Below are positions 41,239-49,470 of a DNA stretch of 64,000 nt, in pieces; the stretch's first letter is position 1, and every line of letters begins with the position of its first letter. The notes beneath the pieces were generated by a model. The model was not told the DNA's origin. It ran no database searches and was given only the letters and a program-made list of their open reading frames with translations. The position numbers and the translations under genes are program-made. Source of the stretch: Streptomyces parvus (GTDB lineage: Bacteria > Actinomycetota > Actinomycetes > Streptomycetales > Streptomycetaceae); NCBI RefSeq assembly GCF_032121415.1, contig NZ_CP135079.1:2418001-2482000 (forward strand), written 5' to 3'.

Positions 41239-41904
41239 TCAGCCGGTCTCCGAGTCATTGCCCTGCTGGTCCTCGCGATCGTTACCGGTGGAATAGCCGA
41301 CCCTCATGGATTCCTTGAGGTCCTGCCCGAATTCACTTCTGACACTCACTCCGTGCTCACGCATGAACTCCTCCATAGGCGACTCCGCCAGGCTCTCACC
41401 AGCGGAATACACCTTTTTCCTCTCTTCCTCGTTGAGGTCTTCGACCTTCTCTTTGTGCTCGTCCACCGAGTTGTCGGAAACGTCACCGATCACCTGTCCG
41501 ATGACTTGCTCCATAGCACCACTGGCCGTGTCAGTGGCCACGGGAATGAGGACGGCGGCGGTGCCTACGGCCGCCGTGGCGGGCAGGAAGGCCACCTCGT
41601 GGTCCCGGATGTTGATGAGGTCGTCCTTGGCCTTCTTGAAGGCCGCGTACCCCTCTTCGAGCAGCGTCCTCACGCCCTTGGCCTCGGCGGCGGCGTCCGC
41701 GAACTCCTTGACGGTCTTGCCGACGAACGCCTTGGTGACCCCCGCGTTGAGGCCTTCCCAGCTCGCCTTGTCCGCCTTCGCCTTCATTCCGTCCGACGCG
41801 TGATCGGCGAGCTTGTCCAGCTTTGCCGTCATTTCCGACCAGTCGTCGGCCGCCGCCTTCAGCTTCCCCAGAGGGGCTTCGACGATGTCCTCGTAACTCA
41901 GCAT
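41239..41904 (-). CDS. Module B short WXG-motif protein (putative T7SS substrate)
   Basis: 221 residues. The N-terminal 95 residues align with the module A large protein: DDWSEMTAKLDKLADHAS, then W49-E50-G51, then FVGKTVKEFADAAAEA. A Gly/Ala/Val-rich hydrophobic stretch (PATAAVGTAAVLIPVATDTA) and a charged tail follow directly, also matching the end of the module A protein. The 550-residue middle is absent, so this looks like a minimal version. No toxin domain recognised. Confidence 0.78.
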   Translation of the reverse strand: MLSYEDIVEAPLGKLKAAADDWSEMTAKLDKLADHASDGMKAKADKASWEGLNAGVTKAFVGKTVKEFADAAAEAKGVRTLLEEGYAAFKKAKDDLINIRDHEVAFLPATAAVGTAAVLIPVATDTASGAMEQVIGQVIGDVSDNSVDEHKEKVEDLNEEERKKVYSAGESLAESPMEEFMREHGVSVRSEFGQDLKESMRVGYSTGNDREDQQGNDSETG

Positions 41905-42497: not shown

Positions 42498-44852
42498 TCA
42501 GGCCTTCGGGGCGGTCGCCACCGCTGCCTGCGGCCTGATCGGCAGGCGGTTCACCGGACGGCCTGTTGCCGAGCGGACCGCTGAGGCCACCGCGGCCGGG
42601 GCCGTGACGACCGGGACGGCCGACGCGGGCTTCGCGCCGAAGGGGGCCACCACGTCGCGTTCCTCGACCAGTTTGACGATGCGGATGTCCGGGGCGTCCA
42701 GTGCCGTCGGGAGCGCGTAGCCCGTCAGGTCGGGGTGGCGGATGAGGCCCTTCGCGGTGCGGAGGTTCTCCGTGAGGGCCGCGCCGATGCCCTGGGTGAT
42801 GCCTGCCTCGATGCGGATGGCCAGCTGGGCCGGGTTCAGGACGCGGCCCACGTCCTGGGCGACCGCCATCTCGACCACTCGGACCGAGCCGAGCTCGATG
42901 TCGACGTCGACCACCGCCCGTACCGCGCAGAAGGCGAGACCGACGAACGCGTCGCCCTGGCCCGCCTCGTCCAGCGGTTCCGTGGGGTGGGGGCGGCACT
43001 GGGCGGTGGCCCAGAGTTCCTTGCCGTCCATGGCCTCCGTGACGGTGGTGGAGAGCACCCCGTCGTACGAGGTGATCTTGCCGTCGGCGATCTGGAGCAG
43101 TTCGGTGGACATGCCGAACTTGTGGGCCAGCGGCTGGAGGAGCTGGGTGCGGACCATCTTCGCCGCGCGTTCCACCGCCCCGCCCGACACCCAGGTGTGG
43201 CGGCCGTGCGTGGCCGGGCCCGCGGGGGGCTGGTCGGTGTCGACCGCCGCTACGTGGACCTCTTCGACGCCCAGGGTCTCCTGGACGATCTGGCGGGCGA
43301 GCGTCGTGAAGCCCTGGCCCGTCTCCACCGCCGCGCAGATGACCGTGGCCACCCCGTCGTGGACCCGGACCGTGGCCGTGGAGACCTCGTCCGTGCCCTC
43401 GGCGCCGAGCATGTGGACCATGCCCAGGCCGTAGCCCACGCCCCGGCGCACCGCCCCCGGCTCCCCCGCGCCCTCGGGGCCGCCCGGCAGCAGCCAGTCG
43501 TCCTCCGGGGCGTCCTTGGGGAGGGCGGGGAGGGGGAAGTCGCGGACCGCGCGGAGCAGTTCGGCCACCGGGGCCGGGCAGGTCACCGTCTGGCCGGTGG
43601 GCAGGATGTCGCCGGTGGACAGCGTGTTGCGCAGGCGCAGCTCGGCCGGGTCGATGCCCAGCTTCGCGGCCAGCTTGTCCATCTGGCCCTCGTACGCCGC
43701 GCAGACCTGCATCGCGCCCTCGCCGCGTACGTGGCCCGAGGGCGGGTTGTTCGTGCGGACCGCCCAGCCCTCGATGAAGGCGTGCGGGACGACGTACGGG
43801 CCGCAGGCGAACGCCACGGCGGCGGCCAGGGATTCGGAGGAGGCGTCGGCGTACGCGCCCGCGTCCAGGAGGATCTGGGCCTCCACCTTGACCAGCCGGC
43901 CCTCCGCGTCCGCGTGGTGGCGGTAGCGCAGGAGGGTGGGGTGGCGGTGGGTGTGGCCGAGGAAGGACTCCTCGCGGCTCGCGGCCAGCTTCACCGGGCA
44001 GCCGGTGCGCAGCGCCAGCAGGCCCAGCGGGATCTGGAAGCCCGGGTCCTCGCGGTCGCCGGTCGCTCCCGGCACCCCGGTCACGACGACCTTGACCCGG
44101 TCCGGCTCCAGGCCGAAGCAGGCCGCGATCAGATCGCGGTCGGTGTGCGGGTCGGTGGAGGCGGTGTAGATCTCGACGCCGCCGTCGGGCCTCGGCACGG
44201 CGAGGCCCGCCTCGGCGCCGATCGGGGCCGGGTCCTGGCGGCCGATGCGGTACAGGCCCTCCACCACGACCTCGCCCGTCGCCTCCGCGTCGCCGTAGCG
44301 CAGCGGGATGTGCCGGATCAGGTTGCCGTCGGGGTGCAGGGGCTCCGCCGCGAACGCCTTCTCCGGGTCCGTGACCGGCTCCAGCACCTCGTACCGTACG
44401 GCGATGGCGGCGGCGGCCAGCCGAGCCGTGTCCGGATGGTCCGCGGCCACCGCGGCGATCGCCTCGCCGTGGTGGCGGACCAGGTCGGAGGCGAACACCG
44501 GGCGGTCCACCACGTGGCGGCCGTAGTTGCTCTCCCCCGGCACGTCCTCGTGCGTGACGACCGCCCGCACCCCGGGCATCTCCTCGGCGCCCGAGGTGTC
44601 GATGGACAGGATCCGCGCGTGCGGGTGCGGGGAGCGCAGCACGGCCGCCCACAGCAGTCCCTCGGCCCAGAGGTCGGCGGCGTACGGGAAGGTGCCCTCG
44701 GTCTTCGCCCGGGCGTCGGCGGCGGGGAGCGACGACCCGAGGCCCATCCGGGGCTGCTCCAGGTCCTGGTCCGGGCCGCCGCCGGATCCGCCGCTCAGCG
44801 CGTCGATCCTGGGCAGACTGGTGCTGGTCGCGTTGGCCGCGTCGCTGCTCAC
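42498..44852 (-). CDS. Molybdenum hydroxylase large subunit (xanthine dehydrogenase/CoxL family) with altered active-site motif
   Basis: 784 residues. Aldehyde oxidase/xanthine dehydrogenase domains are clear: LRSPHPHARILSIDTSGAE, the pterin regions GEGAMQVCAAYEGQMD and AVETGQGFTTLARQIV, and QGIGAALTEN. In the C-terminal signature where family members read GAKGVGEPP, this protein reads FGAKPASAVP (PASA at residues 742-745), so the catalytic glutamate is missing. Partners are the Fe-S and FAD subunits encoded upstream. Substrate and activity are uncertain. Confidence 0.88.
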   Translation of the reverse strand: MSSDAANATSTSLPRIDALSGGSGGGPDQDLEQPRMGLGSSLPAADARAKTEGTFPYAADLWAEGLLWAAVLRSPHPHARILSIDTSGAEEMPGVRAVVTHEDVPGESNYGRHVVDRPVFASDLVRHHGEAIAAVAADHPDTARLAAAAIAVRYEVLEPVTDPEKAFAAEPLHPDGNLIRHIPLRYGDAEATGEVVVEGLYRIGRQDPAPIGAEAGLAVPRPDGGVEIYTASTDPHTDRDLIAACFGLEPDRVKVVVTGVPGATGDREDPGFQIPLGLLALRTGCPVKLAASREESFLGHTHRHPTLLRYRHHADAEGRLVKVEAQILLDAGAYADASSESLAAAVAFACGPYVVPHAFIEGWAVRTNNPPSGHVRGEGAMQVCAAYEGQMDKLAAKLGIDPAELRLRNTLSTGDILPTGQTVTCPAPVAELLRAVRDFPLPALPKDAPEDDWLLPGGPEGAGEPGAVRRGVGYGLGMVHMLGAEGTDEVSTATVRVHDGVATVICAAVETGQGFTTLARQIVQETLGVEEVHVAAVDTDQPPAGPATHGRHTWVSGGAVERAAKMVRTQLLQPLAHKFGMSTELLQIADGKITSYDGVLSTTVTEAMDGKELWATAQCRPHPTEPLDEAGQGDAFVGLAFCAVRAVVDVDIELGSVRVVEMAVAQDVGRVLNPAQLAIRIEAGITQGIGAALTENLRTAKGLIRHPDLTGYALPTALDAPDIRIVKLVEERDVVAPFGAKPASAVPVVTAPAAVASAVRSATGRPVNRLPIRPQAAVATAPKA

Positions 44853-44928: not shown

Positions 44929-46548
44929 TCACAGCGCCTCTCCCTCGTGCGGGTGGGGGCCCTGCTGCACGCCGCCGGCGCCCGGCTCGGCCTGGTGCGG
45001 GATGCGCGCCTCGTCCGTGGCCGCCTCGGCGTTCGCCTCGCGCGCCGCGACGACGTCCGCCACCGCGTCGAGGACGCCCCGGTAGCCGGAACAGCGGCAG
45101 AGGTTGCCGCAGAGCGCCTGGCGGGTCTCCAGCTCGCTGGGGGCGTGGTTGCCCTCCAGCAGGTCGTGGACGGTCATCGCCATGCCGGGGATGCAGAAGC
45201 CGCACTGGACGGCTCCGCAGGCGGACAGGGCGCGCTGGACGTCGGACGGTTCGCCGTCGACGGCCAGGCCCTCGACCGTCCGCACCTCGCTGCCCGCCGC
45301 CGTGGCCGCGGGGACCAGGCAGGAGGCGACCAGCCGGCCGTCGACCTGGACGTTGCACGCCCCGCACTCGCCCTGCGAGCAGCCGTCCTTGGCCCCGGCC
45401 AGACCGAGGCGCTCGCGGAGCACGTAGAGCAGGGACTCGCCGATCCAGGCGTCGCTGACCGGGCGGTCCACGCCGTTCACATGGAGCAGGTAGGACGCGG
45501 CGGGGTGCTCGCTCGGTACGTCGGGGAGGGCGGGGGCCTCGTCGGTGGCGGCGGGCGTGCCATCCGCGGGGGCCGTGGAGCCGGCGGTTTCGGTCGCGGT
45601 GAGGCCGGTGTCTGCGACAGCCTCCGCCTCCGCTCCCGCGTTCGGTTCCGCTTCCCCTTCCCCTTCCGGGAGCGGCTCCGCTCCGCCCCCCTCGGATGCG
45701 TTCTCTTCGGCTTCCGGCTCGGCTTCGGGCACCGCGGCCGGGGACACCGCCACCGGTTCCCGCTCCTCGGGCTCCTCCGCCACCGGTACCGGAGCGGCCT
45801 CCGGTACCGGTGCGGCCTCCGGTTCCGGTGCGGCCGGGGTCGCCCAGGGGGCGGGCGCGCCGCCGGGCAGCGTGGCCGGGCGGGCGCTGTCCGCGTACCA
45901 CTGCGGGGTGTGCGCCGACGCCAGGAACTCGCCCGATTCGTCCGGGAGATCCCCGTCCGCGACCGGGATCGTCCACTGACCCGTGTGGCCCGTGTGTGCG
46001 GTGTGACCCGTGTGGGCCGAAGCGTCTGCCTCCCCGGCCGCCTGGGCCGCCTCCGGGGCCGTCGACTCCGGGGCCCGTGCCGGCTCGCCCAGAGCCTCGG
46101 TGAAGTTCCACTGGGCCGTGGCGTGCGAGGTGTCCTGGTAGGGGCCCTGGTAACCGCCCTGTCGGTTCGGGTCGGGCCAGTGGATCGCCCCGGTCTCCCG
46201 GGCGGCGGCCTCGTGCGCGGCGGCAGCCTCCTGGGCGCGCTGCTCCGCCTGCGCCTGCTGGGTCTGCGTCTGGATCACCCAACTGCCCGTCGCCGCCGGG
46301 TCCAGGCCGGCGGCCGGGGTCAGCGGAACGATCATCGGCGGTACGTACCCGTGGCCGGGGGCGGCCAGCGGGATGTTCGCCAGGTCCTCCGGCGACAGGT
46401 GGACGAACGCGGTGGCGTCGGCCGCGGTGGCGTCGGCGTCGAAGCCGTCGCCCTGCGGGGTCGGCTCCCAGCCGCCGTACCGCGGGTCCGGGCCCTCGGA
46501 ATACCCCCCCTGCCCGTGCTGCTGGTGGGGGTTTTCCTCATTGCTCAC
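44929..46548 (-). CDS. [2Fe-2S] subunit of molybdenum hydroxylase with long disordered N-terminus
   Basis: 539 residues from GTG 46548, overlapping the FAD subunit stop. Only the last 170 residues are the normal CoxS/XdhC-type subunit: plant-type cluster DGCSQGECGACNVQVDG with a fourth Cys in VASCLVP, and the second cluster CGAVQCGFC with CGNLCRCSGY. Residues 1-345 are Ala/Pro/Glu/Gln-rich low complexity with AHTGHT repeats. Family members are usually about 160-200 residues. The frame has normal coding bias throughout, so the extension appears to be translated. Confidence 0.88.
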   Translation of the reverse strand: MSNEENPHQQHGQGGYSEGPDPRYGGWEPTPQGDGFDADATAADATAFVHLSPEDLANIPLAAPGHGYVPPMIVPLTPAAGLDPAATGSWVIQTQTQQAQAEQRAQEAAAAHEAAARETGAIHWPDPNRQGGYQGPYQDTSHATAQWNFTEALGEPARAPESTAPEAAQAAGEADASAHTGHTAHTGHTGQWTIPVADGDLPDESGEFLASAHTPQWYADSARPATLPGGAPAPWATPAAPEPEAAPVPEAAPVPVAEEPEEREPVAVSPAAVPEAEPEAEENASEGGGAEPLPEGEGEAEPNAGAEAEAVADTGLTATETAGSTAPADGTPAATDEAPALPDVPSEHPAASYLLHVNGVDRPVSDAWIGESLLYVLRERLGLAGAKDGCSQGECGACNVQVDGRLVASCLVPAATAAGSEVRTVEGLAVDGEPSDVQRALSACGAVQCGFCIPGMAMTVHDLLEGNHAPSELETRQALCGNLCRCSGYRGVLDAVADVVAAREANAEAATDEARIPHQAEPGAGGVQQGPHPHEGEAL

Positions 46549-47441
46549 GACAGTGCCCTCCCCAGCGCGCGTCGGGCGAGCGCGGCGACGGTGCGCCGCA
46601 GGTGCAGGACGGCCGGGGACAGCGGCGGGGCCTCTGACCCGTCGGCCGGTGGTGCGTGGTCCGGGATGCAGGCCGCGGCGACGTACTCGCCGAAGGCGGC
46701 CAGCGCGTCGGGGGCCAGGCCCCGCTCGCCGTCCCAGTCGATCAGCGAGGCGATCCACTGCTCAGCCTCCAGCGGGCGCAGCGGCATCGGGGCGATGGCG
46801 CCGACCGCGCAGCGCACGCCCCTGCGGGCCGGGTCCAGGACGATGGCGACCGAGGCGGTGGCGCGGCCGGGGCCGGTGCGGCCGGTGGCCTTCAGGAAGA
46901 CCTGCGGGGCGTGCAGCAGCGGTACGCGGACGAAGCCGATCAGCTCTGCGGGCTCCAGCAGTTCGCGGCCCGCCAGCAGATGGGAGACGGGGATCTCGCG
47001 GCGGGCGCCCTCGGGGCCCGCGATGACGAGTTCGGCCTCCAGCGCGGCCAGCACCGGCAGGGCGTCGCCGGTGGGCGCGGAGGTGACGATGTTGCCGCCG
47101 AGCGTTCCGGCGTTGCGGATCTGGGGCGGGCCCGCGGCGCGGGCGGAGGCGGCGAGGGCGGGGATGAGGGCGGCGAAGTCCGGGCGTCCCATCCGGGCGT
47201 GGGTGAGTCCGGCGCCCAGGAGCGCGTGGCCGTCCTGGTAGTGCCAGCCGCGCAGCTCGCTGATCCGGCCGAGGCCGACCAGCCCCGAGGGGCGCAGCAG
47301 CCCCTTGTTGACGGCTGCCATCAGGTCCGTGCCCCCTGCAACCGGAACGGCTGCGGGCATGGCGCCGAGAGCCGCCACGGCCTCGTCCAACGAGGCCGGC
47401 AGCGTCACCGACTGCGTCGCCTGCGGTGCGTGCGTGGTCAA
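46545..47441 (-). CDS. FAD-binding subunit of molybdenum hydroxylase (CoxM-like)
   Basis: 298 residues if translation begins at TTG 47441, which has GAAGGGG about 8 bases upstream; upstream GTG and ATG codons give longer, less family-like N-termini. FAD motifs PVAGGTDLMAAVNKG and RNAGTLGGNIVTSAPTGDALPVL are present. First gene of a three-gene unit (FAD, Fe-S, Mo subunits) that transfers electrons from the Mo site through Fe-S to FAD. Confidence 0.85.
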   Translation of the reverse strand: MTTHAPQATQSVTLPASLDEAVAALGAMPAAVPVAGGTDLMAAVNKGLLRPSGLVGLGRISELRGWHYQDGHALLGAGLTHARMGRPDFAALIPALAASARAAGPPQIRNAGTLGGNIVTSAPTGDALPVLAALEAELVIAGPEGARREIPVSHLLAGRELLEPAELIGFVRVPLLHAPQVFLKATGRTGPGRATASVAIVLDPARRGVRCAVGAIAPMPLRPLEAEQWIASLIDWDGERGLAPDALAAFGEYVAAACIPDHAPPADGSEAPPLSPAVLHLRRTVAALARRALGRALS

Positions 47442-47766: not shown

Positions 47767-49470
47767 TCACACCACCGGAGGCTCCCCCTCCAGCGGGCGG
47801 CCGAGGATGCCGGGGCGCTGGTGGCGGGGGTAGGGGCCGCCCGGCGGGCGGTAGTCGACACCGAGGGCGTCGAGGCGGGCGTAGTGGGCCCGCATCCGGG
47901 CTTCGAAGGCGGCGAAGTCCCGGTCGGCCGGGGCGGGCAGGGTCGACCAGGCGACCTCGGCGAAGGCGGCGAGGCGCGGGAAGACCTGGTAGTCGACGCG
48001 GGCCCGGTTCTGCATGACCTCGGTCCACACGTTGGCCTGGGTGCCCAGGATGTGACGGGCCGCCTCCTCGCTCAGGCCCGGCGGGACGGGCTCGAAGCGG
48101 TAGACGTCCTCCAGGGTCCGTACGTATCCGATGGGCATCGGCTCGTGGGGGCCGCCGTCCTGACGGTGGTCCAGGTACACCTGCTGCTCGGGGCACATGA
48201 CGACGTCGTGCCCGGCCTCGGCGGCCGCGATGCCGCCGCCGTAACCGCGCCAGGAGGAGACCGCGGCCCCTTCGGCGAGGCCGCCTTCGAGGATCTCGTC
48301 CCAGCCGATGAGGCGGCGGCCACGGGCGGTGAGCCAGGCGTCGAAGTGGCGGATGAACCAGGACTGGAGGCCGTCCTCGTCCTTCACGCCGAGTTCGGCG
48401 ATCCGGGCCTGGGCGAGCGGGGACTCCTTCCACTGGTCCTTGGGGCACTCGTCGCCGCCCATGTGGACGAAGGGCGAGATCTCGGCGGGGAAGAGCTCCA
48501 GCACCTCCTCCAGGACGCCCTCGAAGAAGCGCAGGGTGGTGTCGGTGGGGGCGAGTACGTTCGGGTTGACGCCCCAGGTGTCCCAGACGGAGAGGGTGGT
48601 GGTGTCGATGACGTCGGTGTTGCCCAGCTCGGGGTAGGCGCTGATCGCGGCCTGCGAGTGGCCCGGGATGTCGATCTCGGGGACGACCCGGATGTGCCGC
48701 TCGGCGGCGTAGGCGACGATCTCGCGGATGTCGTCCTGGGTGTAGAAGCCGCCGTAGGGCGTCTCGTCCCACAGCTCGGAGGCCCGGTGGCCGTACTTGG
48801 TGCGCGAGCGCCAGGAGCCGACCTCGGTGAGGCGCGGGTAGCGCTTGATCTCGATGCGCCAGCCCTGGTCGTCGGTGAGGTGGAAGTGGAAGACGTTCAG
48901 CTTGTGGGCGGCCAGCAGGTCCAGGTAGCGCAGGACGTCGTCCTTGGGCAGGAAGTGCCGGGAGACGTCGAGCATCATTCCGCGCCAGCCGAAGCGGGGT
49001 TCGTCCTCGACGACGACCGGCGGGACCTCCCAGGTGCGGCCGGGGGCGAGGGGGGCGCGGCGGAAGGCGTCCGCGCCGAGGAGCTGACGGAGGGTCTGCG
49101 CGCCGCGGAAGACGCCTGCCGCGGTGCCGCCCGTGATGCGTACGGCGTTGGCCTCGACGGCCAGGCGGTATCCCTCGGGGGCGAGCGACTCGTCGAGCGC
49201 CAGCACGATGCCACGCCCGGTCGAGCCGGAGCCGTCGCCCGCGCCCGTGCCGGTGCCGTCGCCTTCGGGCAGGGGCAGTCCGGTGGGCGGGCCGAGGGTG
49301 GCGCGCAGCCAGCGGGCGACGCCCTCGGTGCCCGGTGCGGCGGTCAGCGGGGTCGTGTAGCCGAGCGGATACGGCCCGGCGGCGGCCGCGGTCAGGGTGC
49401 GCGGGGCCGGGACCAGGCCGAGGGCTGAGGTGTCCACGGCTCCCGCGGGGGCGGGATTCTGGGGGGTCAT
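47767..49470 (-). CDS. Beta-N-acetylhexosaminidase (GH20)
   Basis: 567 residues. The GH20 catalytic pair D340-E341 is in VHMGGDECPKDQW; FHFHLTDDQGWR and the MLDVSRHF motif precede it, and the substrate tryptophans lie in GTQANVWTE. It releases terminal GlcNAc from chito-oligosaccharides or wall fragments. No signal peptide is visible, so it probably acts in the cytoplasm on imported oligosaccharides. It follows the sugar ABC transporter genes by 4 bases and is likely cotranscribed with them. Confidence 0.95.
   Translation of the reverse strand: MTPQNPAPAGAVDTSALGLVPAPRTLTAAAAGPYPLGYTTPLTAAPGTEGVARWLRATLGPPTGLPLPEGDGTGTGAGDGSGSTGRGIVLALDESLAPEGYRLAVEANAVRITGGTAAGVFRGAQTLRQLLGADAFRRAPLAPGRTWEVPPVVVEDEPRFGWRGMMLDVSRHFLPKDDVLRYLDLLAAHKLNVFHFHLTDDQGWRIEIKRYPRLTEVGSWRSRTKYGHRASELWDETPYGGFYTQDDIREIVAYAAERHIRVVPEIDIPGHSQAAISAYPELGNTDVIDTTTLSVWDTWGVNPNVLAPTDTTLRFFEGVLEEVLELFPAEISPFVHMGGDECPKDQWKESPLAQARIAELGVKDEDGLQSWFIRHFDAWLTARGRRLIGWDEILEGGLAEGAAVSSWRGYGGGIAAAEAGHDVVMCPEQQVYLDHRQDGGPHEPMPIGYVRTLEDVYRFEPVPPGLSEEAARHILGTQANVWTEVMQNRARVDYQVFPRLAAFAEVAWSTLPAPADRDFAAFEARMRAHYARLDALGVDYRPPGGPYPRHQRPGILGRPLEGEPPVV

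Follow-up and report, generated by a model that had tools for sequence, protein, structure and literature searches.

The window, a 64,000-nucleotide stretch of the Streptomyces parvus genome, encodes a molybdenum (Mo) subunit homologue of the xanthine oxidase family together with [2Fe-2S] and FAD partner subunits, and the Mo-subunit homologue has alanine at residue 745, where molybdenum hydroxylases carry the glutamate that acts as their general base. With moderate confidence, and judging from sequence, we favor the interpretation that the three genes encode a conserved pseudo-molybdenum-hydroxylase, which would most likely be an Fe-S/FAD redox complex independent of Mo. The strongest evidence comes from eight Streptomyces genomes in which the chaperone XdhC was not found: the orthologue, with unaltered motifs, was the sole Mo subunit of the xanthine oxidase family detected there.

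The Mo-subunit gene, reported in the earlier note without its strand, is indeed an open frame of 784 codons, and it lies on the minus strand. The [2Fe-2S] and FAD genes are located upstream on the same strand, and the inferred GTG start of the [2Fe-2S] gene overlaps the stop of the FAD gene by 4 nt (Table 1). All three Pfam domains of the Mo-subunit homologue scored above the Pfam cut-offs, and the best NCBIfam model was TIGR03196 (pucD), at 654.1 bits, below the equivalog cut-off of 783.65. When the neighborhoods of 80 named loci among the matches listed were searched by tblastn, the Fe-S subunit was found at 79, the FAD subunit at 75, the GH20 gene at 74, an ABC permease at 61, and a sugar-binding protein at 59, with part of the misses due to contig ends. 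Downstream of the operon is a small gene (41239 to 41904) that belongs to no Pfam family and is variable, being present at 26 of 80 named loci among the matches listed, often displaced and inverted once.

Table 1. Features of the operon and its conserved neighbor, in window coordinates
Feature	Coordinates	Strand	Remarks
Mo-subunit homologue, 784 aa, Ala745 in place of the general-base Glu	42498..44852	-	Pfam Ald_Xan_dh_C, MoCoBD_1, MoCoBD_2
FGAKPASAVP motif, residues 738-747	42612..42641	-	Codon 745 is GCC (Ala), 42618-42620
SGHVRGEGAMQ loop, residues 372-382	43707..43739	-	Glu378 (43719-43721) in place of Phe of canonical RGFG
TGVPGATGDRED loop, residues 258-269	44046..44081	-	Canonical GVGGAFGGRED; Phe replaced by Thr264, Gly by Pro261
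Ala344 codon, canonical Asn	43821..43823	-	
[2Fe-2S] subunit, 539 aa, inferred GTG start	44929..46548	-	Cluster cysteines retained
N-terminal extension of [2Fe-2S] subunit, about 345 residues	45516..46548	-	Low complexity by eye, conserved short motifs
FAD subunit, about 298 aa, inferred TTG start	46545..47441	-	FAD motifs retained
GH20 hexosaminidase, upstream of operon	47767..49470	-	Conserved neighbor; functional link hypothetical

The general-base position and the molybdenum pocket

The earlier note had proposed from the FGAKPASAVP motif that the catalytic Glu is missing, and alignment bore this out. HMMER alignment blocks without gaps place Ala745 opposite the Glu of D. gigas aldehyde oxidoreductase (869 as counted from the alignment) and that of 4-hydroxybenzoyl-CoA reductase, whose motif reads GAKEASE, so that the GVG preceding the Glu is itself not universal. 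Among 225 loci examined, 166 gave orthologue rows with an identity of 70% or more, representing 154 distinct sequences, none of which was dropped for length. Residue 745 was Ala in 153 of these and Ser in one, and the equivalent position was Glu in all 30 canonical-type relatives, a set picked for comparison. Conservation among Streptomyces homologues, the check that the note had suggested, thus came out in favor of a fixed substitution, and the strain-specific error that it thought homologues retaining Glu would indicate did not hold up among the orthologues, although an outlying relative, 55% identical, in genome G025 retains Glu. A sequencing error in the strain, or chance, is ruled out, since none of the 154 distinct orthologues has Glu745. 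Mutation of that Glu alone abolishes activity in mouse AOX1, where, according to the available part of PMC2671166, the E1265Q variant is inactive with a Mo cofactor content of 60%, compared to 70% in the wild type, and we count this in favor of a pseudo-hydroxylase.

The same note had described the rest of the protein, including the pterin-binding motifs, as intact, and this proved wrong, as the Mo pocket has been rebuilt. All 154 distinct orthologues have Glu at residue 378 and Ala at residue 344, where all 30 canonical-type relatives have Phe and Asn, respectively. At residue 264, where the 30 again have Phe, 142 of the 154 have Thr and just one has Phe; the aromatic residues of the canonical GAFG and RGFG loops (264 and 378) are therefore not retained. 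We take residue 344 to map to the position of the bovine substrate Arg and the loop carrying Glu378 to be a substrate-pocket loop. In addition, Gln513 of the pterin-binding GQG motif (43314 to 43316) is Ser in 20 of the 154. With near-constant defined as 95% of orthologues and 90% of canonical-type relatives, 185 alignment columns were near-constant and identical between the groups and 37 were near-constant in both groups yet with different residues. Of the latter, 21 fall within residues 205 to 213, 261, 344, 372 to 378, 509 to 552, and 738 to 745, stretches that we presume from known structures to line the Mo site or to contact the substrate. Retained in the distinct orthologues are Q206 (149/154), E268 (149/154), and R376 (154/154), and Q206 and R376 presumably adjoin the Mo site. 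AlphaFold prediction, made from the protein of the window aligned with 27 of its close orthologues to look for a substitute Glu, gave a model of unusably low confidence (mean pLDDT, 38.5; pTM, 0.24).

Partner subunits, distribution, and ancestry

The partner subunits, also reported in the earlier note, are present and keep their cofactor motifs. The small subunit contains Fer2 and Fer2_2 domains, corresponding to two [2Fe-2S] clusters; its Fe-S core motif was found at all 79 named loci among the matches listed, and the cysteine patterns of 76 named loci among those matches contain the eight ligands, where the assignment of particular cysteines as ligands is our assumption. The GGTDLM FAD motif was found in 74 of 75 FAD subunits among the matches listed, the remaining row being uncovered at the motif.

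The N-terminal extension of the [2Fe-2S] subunit is missing from the canonical-type copies compared (L233 and L225). This arm, which from its composition is probably disordered, bears conserved short motifs that contain Trp and Pro. Over 79 loci among the matches listed, ATAFV was found at 67, GYVPP-type motifs at 64, TGQWTIP-type motifs at 63, and ATLPGGAPAPWA-type motifs at 60, several of the misses being incomplete loci. Counted from the upstream stop codon, the residues preceding the Fe-S domain number up to about 560 in the G025 relative (L222), which thus already has a long stretch there, and up to about 1940 in G059, where the small-subunit frame (L234) spans 2117 codons. The arm is short or missing in G247 and G187 and hence is not strictly required. 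In a search for further copies in the genome, a 241-aa piece of the arm matched itself only. A DATAFV-type regular expression run over the locus set gave 44 matches, 42 of them in flagged Fe-S subunits, and the other two were L183, the context of which resembles the same arm, and one in a very short frame.

The orthologue was found in 24 of 25 same-genus genomes, its own included, and the exception, G008, retains a canonical-type copy. The best match was of the orthologue type in every one of the 230 Streptomycetaceae genomes sampled (E of 2.2e-244 or better, where canonical-type copies in the family score about 1e-190 to 1e-205), a typing made mostly by score and not by reading of sequences. 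A canonical-motif paralogue, about 43 to 44% identical to the Mo-subunit homologue, is encoded elsewhere in the same genome. The orthologue in one record, L098, is typical of Streptomyces (87% identity), although the record is titled Microtetraspora glauca NRRL B-3735, a name that may be out of date or mistaken.

In a 54-row tree of selected rows, the Streptomycetaceae sequences formed a clade whose sister group (100/99) consisted of degenerate copies from genomes of a different family in the order, with deep placements left unsure by the long branches of L003 and L054. By alignment, these relatives have Asp or Arg at 745, Gly378, and Glu344; we guess that their family is Catenulispora-like, and from their residues they appear to have lost the same site by different routes. 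At L227, L228, L229, and L260, another family of the order carries a more degenerate three-subunit relative. The G025 relative keeps Glu745, has His378, and fell outside both clades with weak support (86/33).

We presume from annotation and gene order that SCO2940 is the probable S. coelicolor orthologue. The available part of PMC3770449 includes SCO2940, a putative xanthine dehydrogenase, among the genes for which protein and mRNA were both measured and flags it as different between growth and stationary phase by the combined test and by neither data set alone. SCO2939 is in a sigma-E regulon list from among PMC6627660, PMC12771579, PMC13118837, and PMC6767563, the available parts of which hold nothing further on the locus.

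Genomes in which XdhC was not found

XdhC is the chaperone that sulfurates and inserts the Mo cofactor of the xanthine oxidase family. As described in the available part of PMC2997495, sulfido-Mo enzymes of the family usually need XdhC, and in an R. capsulatus xdhC mutant, xanthine dehydrogenase lacked Mo-MPT and kept Fe-S and FAD. Among the best 14 or 16 first-look candidates of each genome, XdhC_C (PF13478) went undetected in 6 of the 245 genomes searched across the order, and XdhC_CoxI (PF02625) in 9 of 392 Streptomyces genomes. Because only those candidates, out of several dozen or more per genome, were scored, we word absence as "not found"; true XdhC matches elsewhere score about 1e-43 (PF13478) or about 1e-25 (PF02625) and are expected to rank first. 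MoaA was found in 244 of the 245 genomes of the order.

Together, the two models flagged 11 Streptomyces genomes as lacking XdhC, and exactly one MoCoBD_2 protein was found in each of eight: G064 (tested with PF13478 only), G547, G605, G624, G733, and G783 (PF02625 only), and G180 and G227 (both). In all eight, that single protein is the orthologue, with E378, Ala or Ser at 745, and the Fe-S core; the FAD subunit was seen in six, and the contigs of G605 and G624 stop before the FAD gene. Two of the eight, G733 and G783, are single-contig assemblies. At least five changes of XdhC status were counted on a 45-row tree with G642 taken as XdhC negative, and the eight remain spread over four separate places when G642 is left out, with weak support at some forks. 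G642 itself, where XdhC was not found, has the orthologue and a canonical-like copy (L280) that matched in part only and is possibly a decaying remnant. Four MoCoBD_2 places were found in G554 (82% complete, 1770 contigs), and the one examined with its flanks (L281) is not of the family. In G113 (910 contigs), the orthologue and a canonical-type copy were found and XdhC_C was not, indicating that fragmentation of an assembly can cause XdhC to be missed. The sole MoCoBD_2 protein found in G033 and G035, genomes of the same order in which XdhC_C was not found, is a degenerate relative. The genome from which the window comes has XdhC, and XdhC-bearing genomes, that one included, give no information on XdhC dependence.

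MocA (TIGR03310), taken as a further marker of cofactor maturation, gave no match above the cut-off in any of 12 genomes searched. Near-full-length matches (E of 2.3e-27 or better) were obtained in G000, G065, G089, G105, and G059, and only weaker ones (E of 2.2e-14 or worse) in G064, G180, G227, G113, G129, G033, and G035; since G129 has XdhC, the marker is suggestive only. On the XdhC searches, the orthologue is not confined to XdhC-bearing genomes, being kept in eight Streptomyces genomes in which XdhC was not found, and its retention there suggests that it probably functions without a matured Mo cofactor. The genomes in which XdhC was not found represent a natural experiment on Mo independence.

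Interpretation and known systems

We propose that the complex descends from a xanthine dehydrogenase of the PucD type, the Mo pocket of which would have been rebuilt before the Streptomycetaceae diversified. The residues suggest that base-assisted sulfido-Mo hydroxylation was given up, and genome content points to a complex that probably does not depend on a matured Mo cofactor. What remains would be an Fe-S/FAD electron-transfer complex, its motifs observed and its redox activity predicted from them, in which the two [2Fe-2S] clusters most likely relay electrons between FAD and a non-Mo partner. The vestigial Mo subunit may remain as a scaffold for dimerization and ligand binding, and the small-subunit arm might, speculatively, recruit partners. 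Several points count against a Mo-free complex: retention of Q206 and R376, the presumed Mo-site residues, would be odd if no cofactor were bound; Mo-cofactor synthesis persists at the level of MoaA, such that plain Mo-MPT could still load; and XdhC was looked for among the scored candidates only and, as in G113, can be overlooked.

Glu378 could instead have replaced Glu745 as a relocated base in an active Mo enzyme that acts on a different substrate or by a different reaction. The invariable pairing of Glu378 with loss of Glu745 (154/154 distinct orthologues) and the retention of Q206, E268, and R376 fit such an enzyme, but keeping the gene in the eight genomes where XdhC was not found does not. 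Opposite residue 378, D. gigas aldehyde oxidoreductase has a Tyr (535 by count) that we take to line the pocket, and the G025 relative, with His378 and Glu745, is a possible intermediate; the Catenulispora-like relatives, on the other hand, have neither Glu, and the substitution of Gln513 by Ser in 20 of 154 orthologues is likewise unfavorable. On these sequences, a relocated base seems to us unlikely.

A non-redox scaffold or regulator, which would bind a small molecule or a partner and signal while its clusters were purely structural, is considerably harder to accept, as the Fe-S core and the FAD motif, kept at nearly all loci among the matches listed, would be superfluous for a pure scaffold. 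The Fe-S cysteines are kept even in the Catenulispora-like degenerate copies examined, although the lost catalytic residues and the long arm with its conserved short motifs would suit that role. Loss of active-site residues could also mean that the gene is being lost or was misread when the strain was sequenced, which is scarcely credible: the absence of Glu from all 154 orthologues, the open frames, and the conserved operon refute it at the genus level, as does dN/dS, which was 0.11 to 0.38 in six comparisons of orthologues and 0.16 to 0.47 in six of the canonical-type paralogue, with five genomes in common. Purifying selection is thus comparable to that on the paralogue and the family is not decaying, in agreement with the earlier opinion that the change is not simple decay.

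The Mo-independent Fe-S/FAD complex thus remains our preferred reading. We extend it only tentatively, from the same sequences and a little short of what we would call probable, to a "molybdenum-free molybdoenzyme." On this view, an old complex shared by nearly all Streptomyces would have arisen by conversion of a xanthine dehydrogenase into a Mo-independent Fe-S/flavin redox machine with an empty or re-liganded Mo subunit as scaffold and a small subunit with a long, motif-bearing arm. If true, the xanthine oxidase family would here have its first pseudoenzyme branch that fulfils a selected role in the cell; we know of no other, and no Glu-less molybdenum hydroxylase was found among the papers listed in literature searches, as judged by titles and abstract openings. 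If Mo independent, the complex would show re-use of a complete multi-cofactor redox enzyme after loss of its catalytic metal site. The gene, automatically annotated as xanthine dehydrogenase across Streptomyces, is probably not one, and pathway models and knock-out readings that count it as xanthine dehydrogenase activity may be wrong.

Among known systems, D. gigas aldehyde oxidoreductase (1sij/1vlb) has homologous Mo domains (E of 1.2e-60) and keeps the Glu that is Ala here. 4-Hydroxybenzoyl-CoA reductase (1rm6) is homologous over its full length, its GAKEASE resembles the GAKPASA of the window protein, and it too lacks the Phe at residue 378, having His there, but it keeps the Glu. The Catenulispora-like relatives (L052, L053, L228, and L054) have likewise lost canonical Mo-site residues and keep the Fe-S cysteines in those examined; they differ in having Asp or Arg at 745, Gly378, and Glu344, L227 and L228 are without the long arm, and no GH20 gene was found near these relatives within the flanking stretches examined. 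The PucD-type xanthine dehydrogenases (PucCDE of B. subtilis and XdhABC of Streptomyces) have the same three subunits, with FAD, two [2Fe-2S] clusters, and a Mo-domain protein. Compared to these, the complex described here lacks the catalytic Glu, the pocket Phe residues, and Asn344, scores below the pucD cut-off, is kept where XdhC was not found, and carries a long small-subunit arm.
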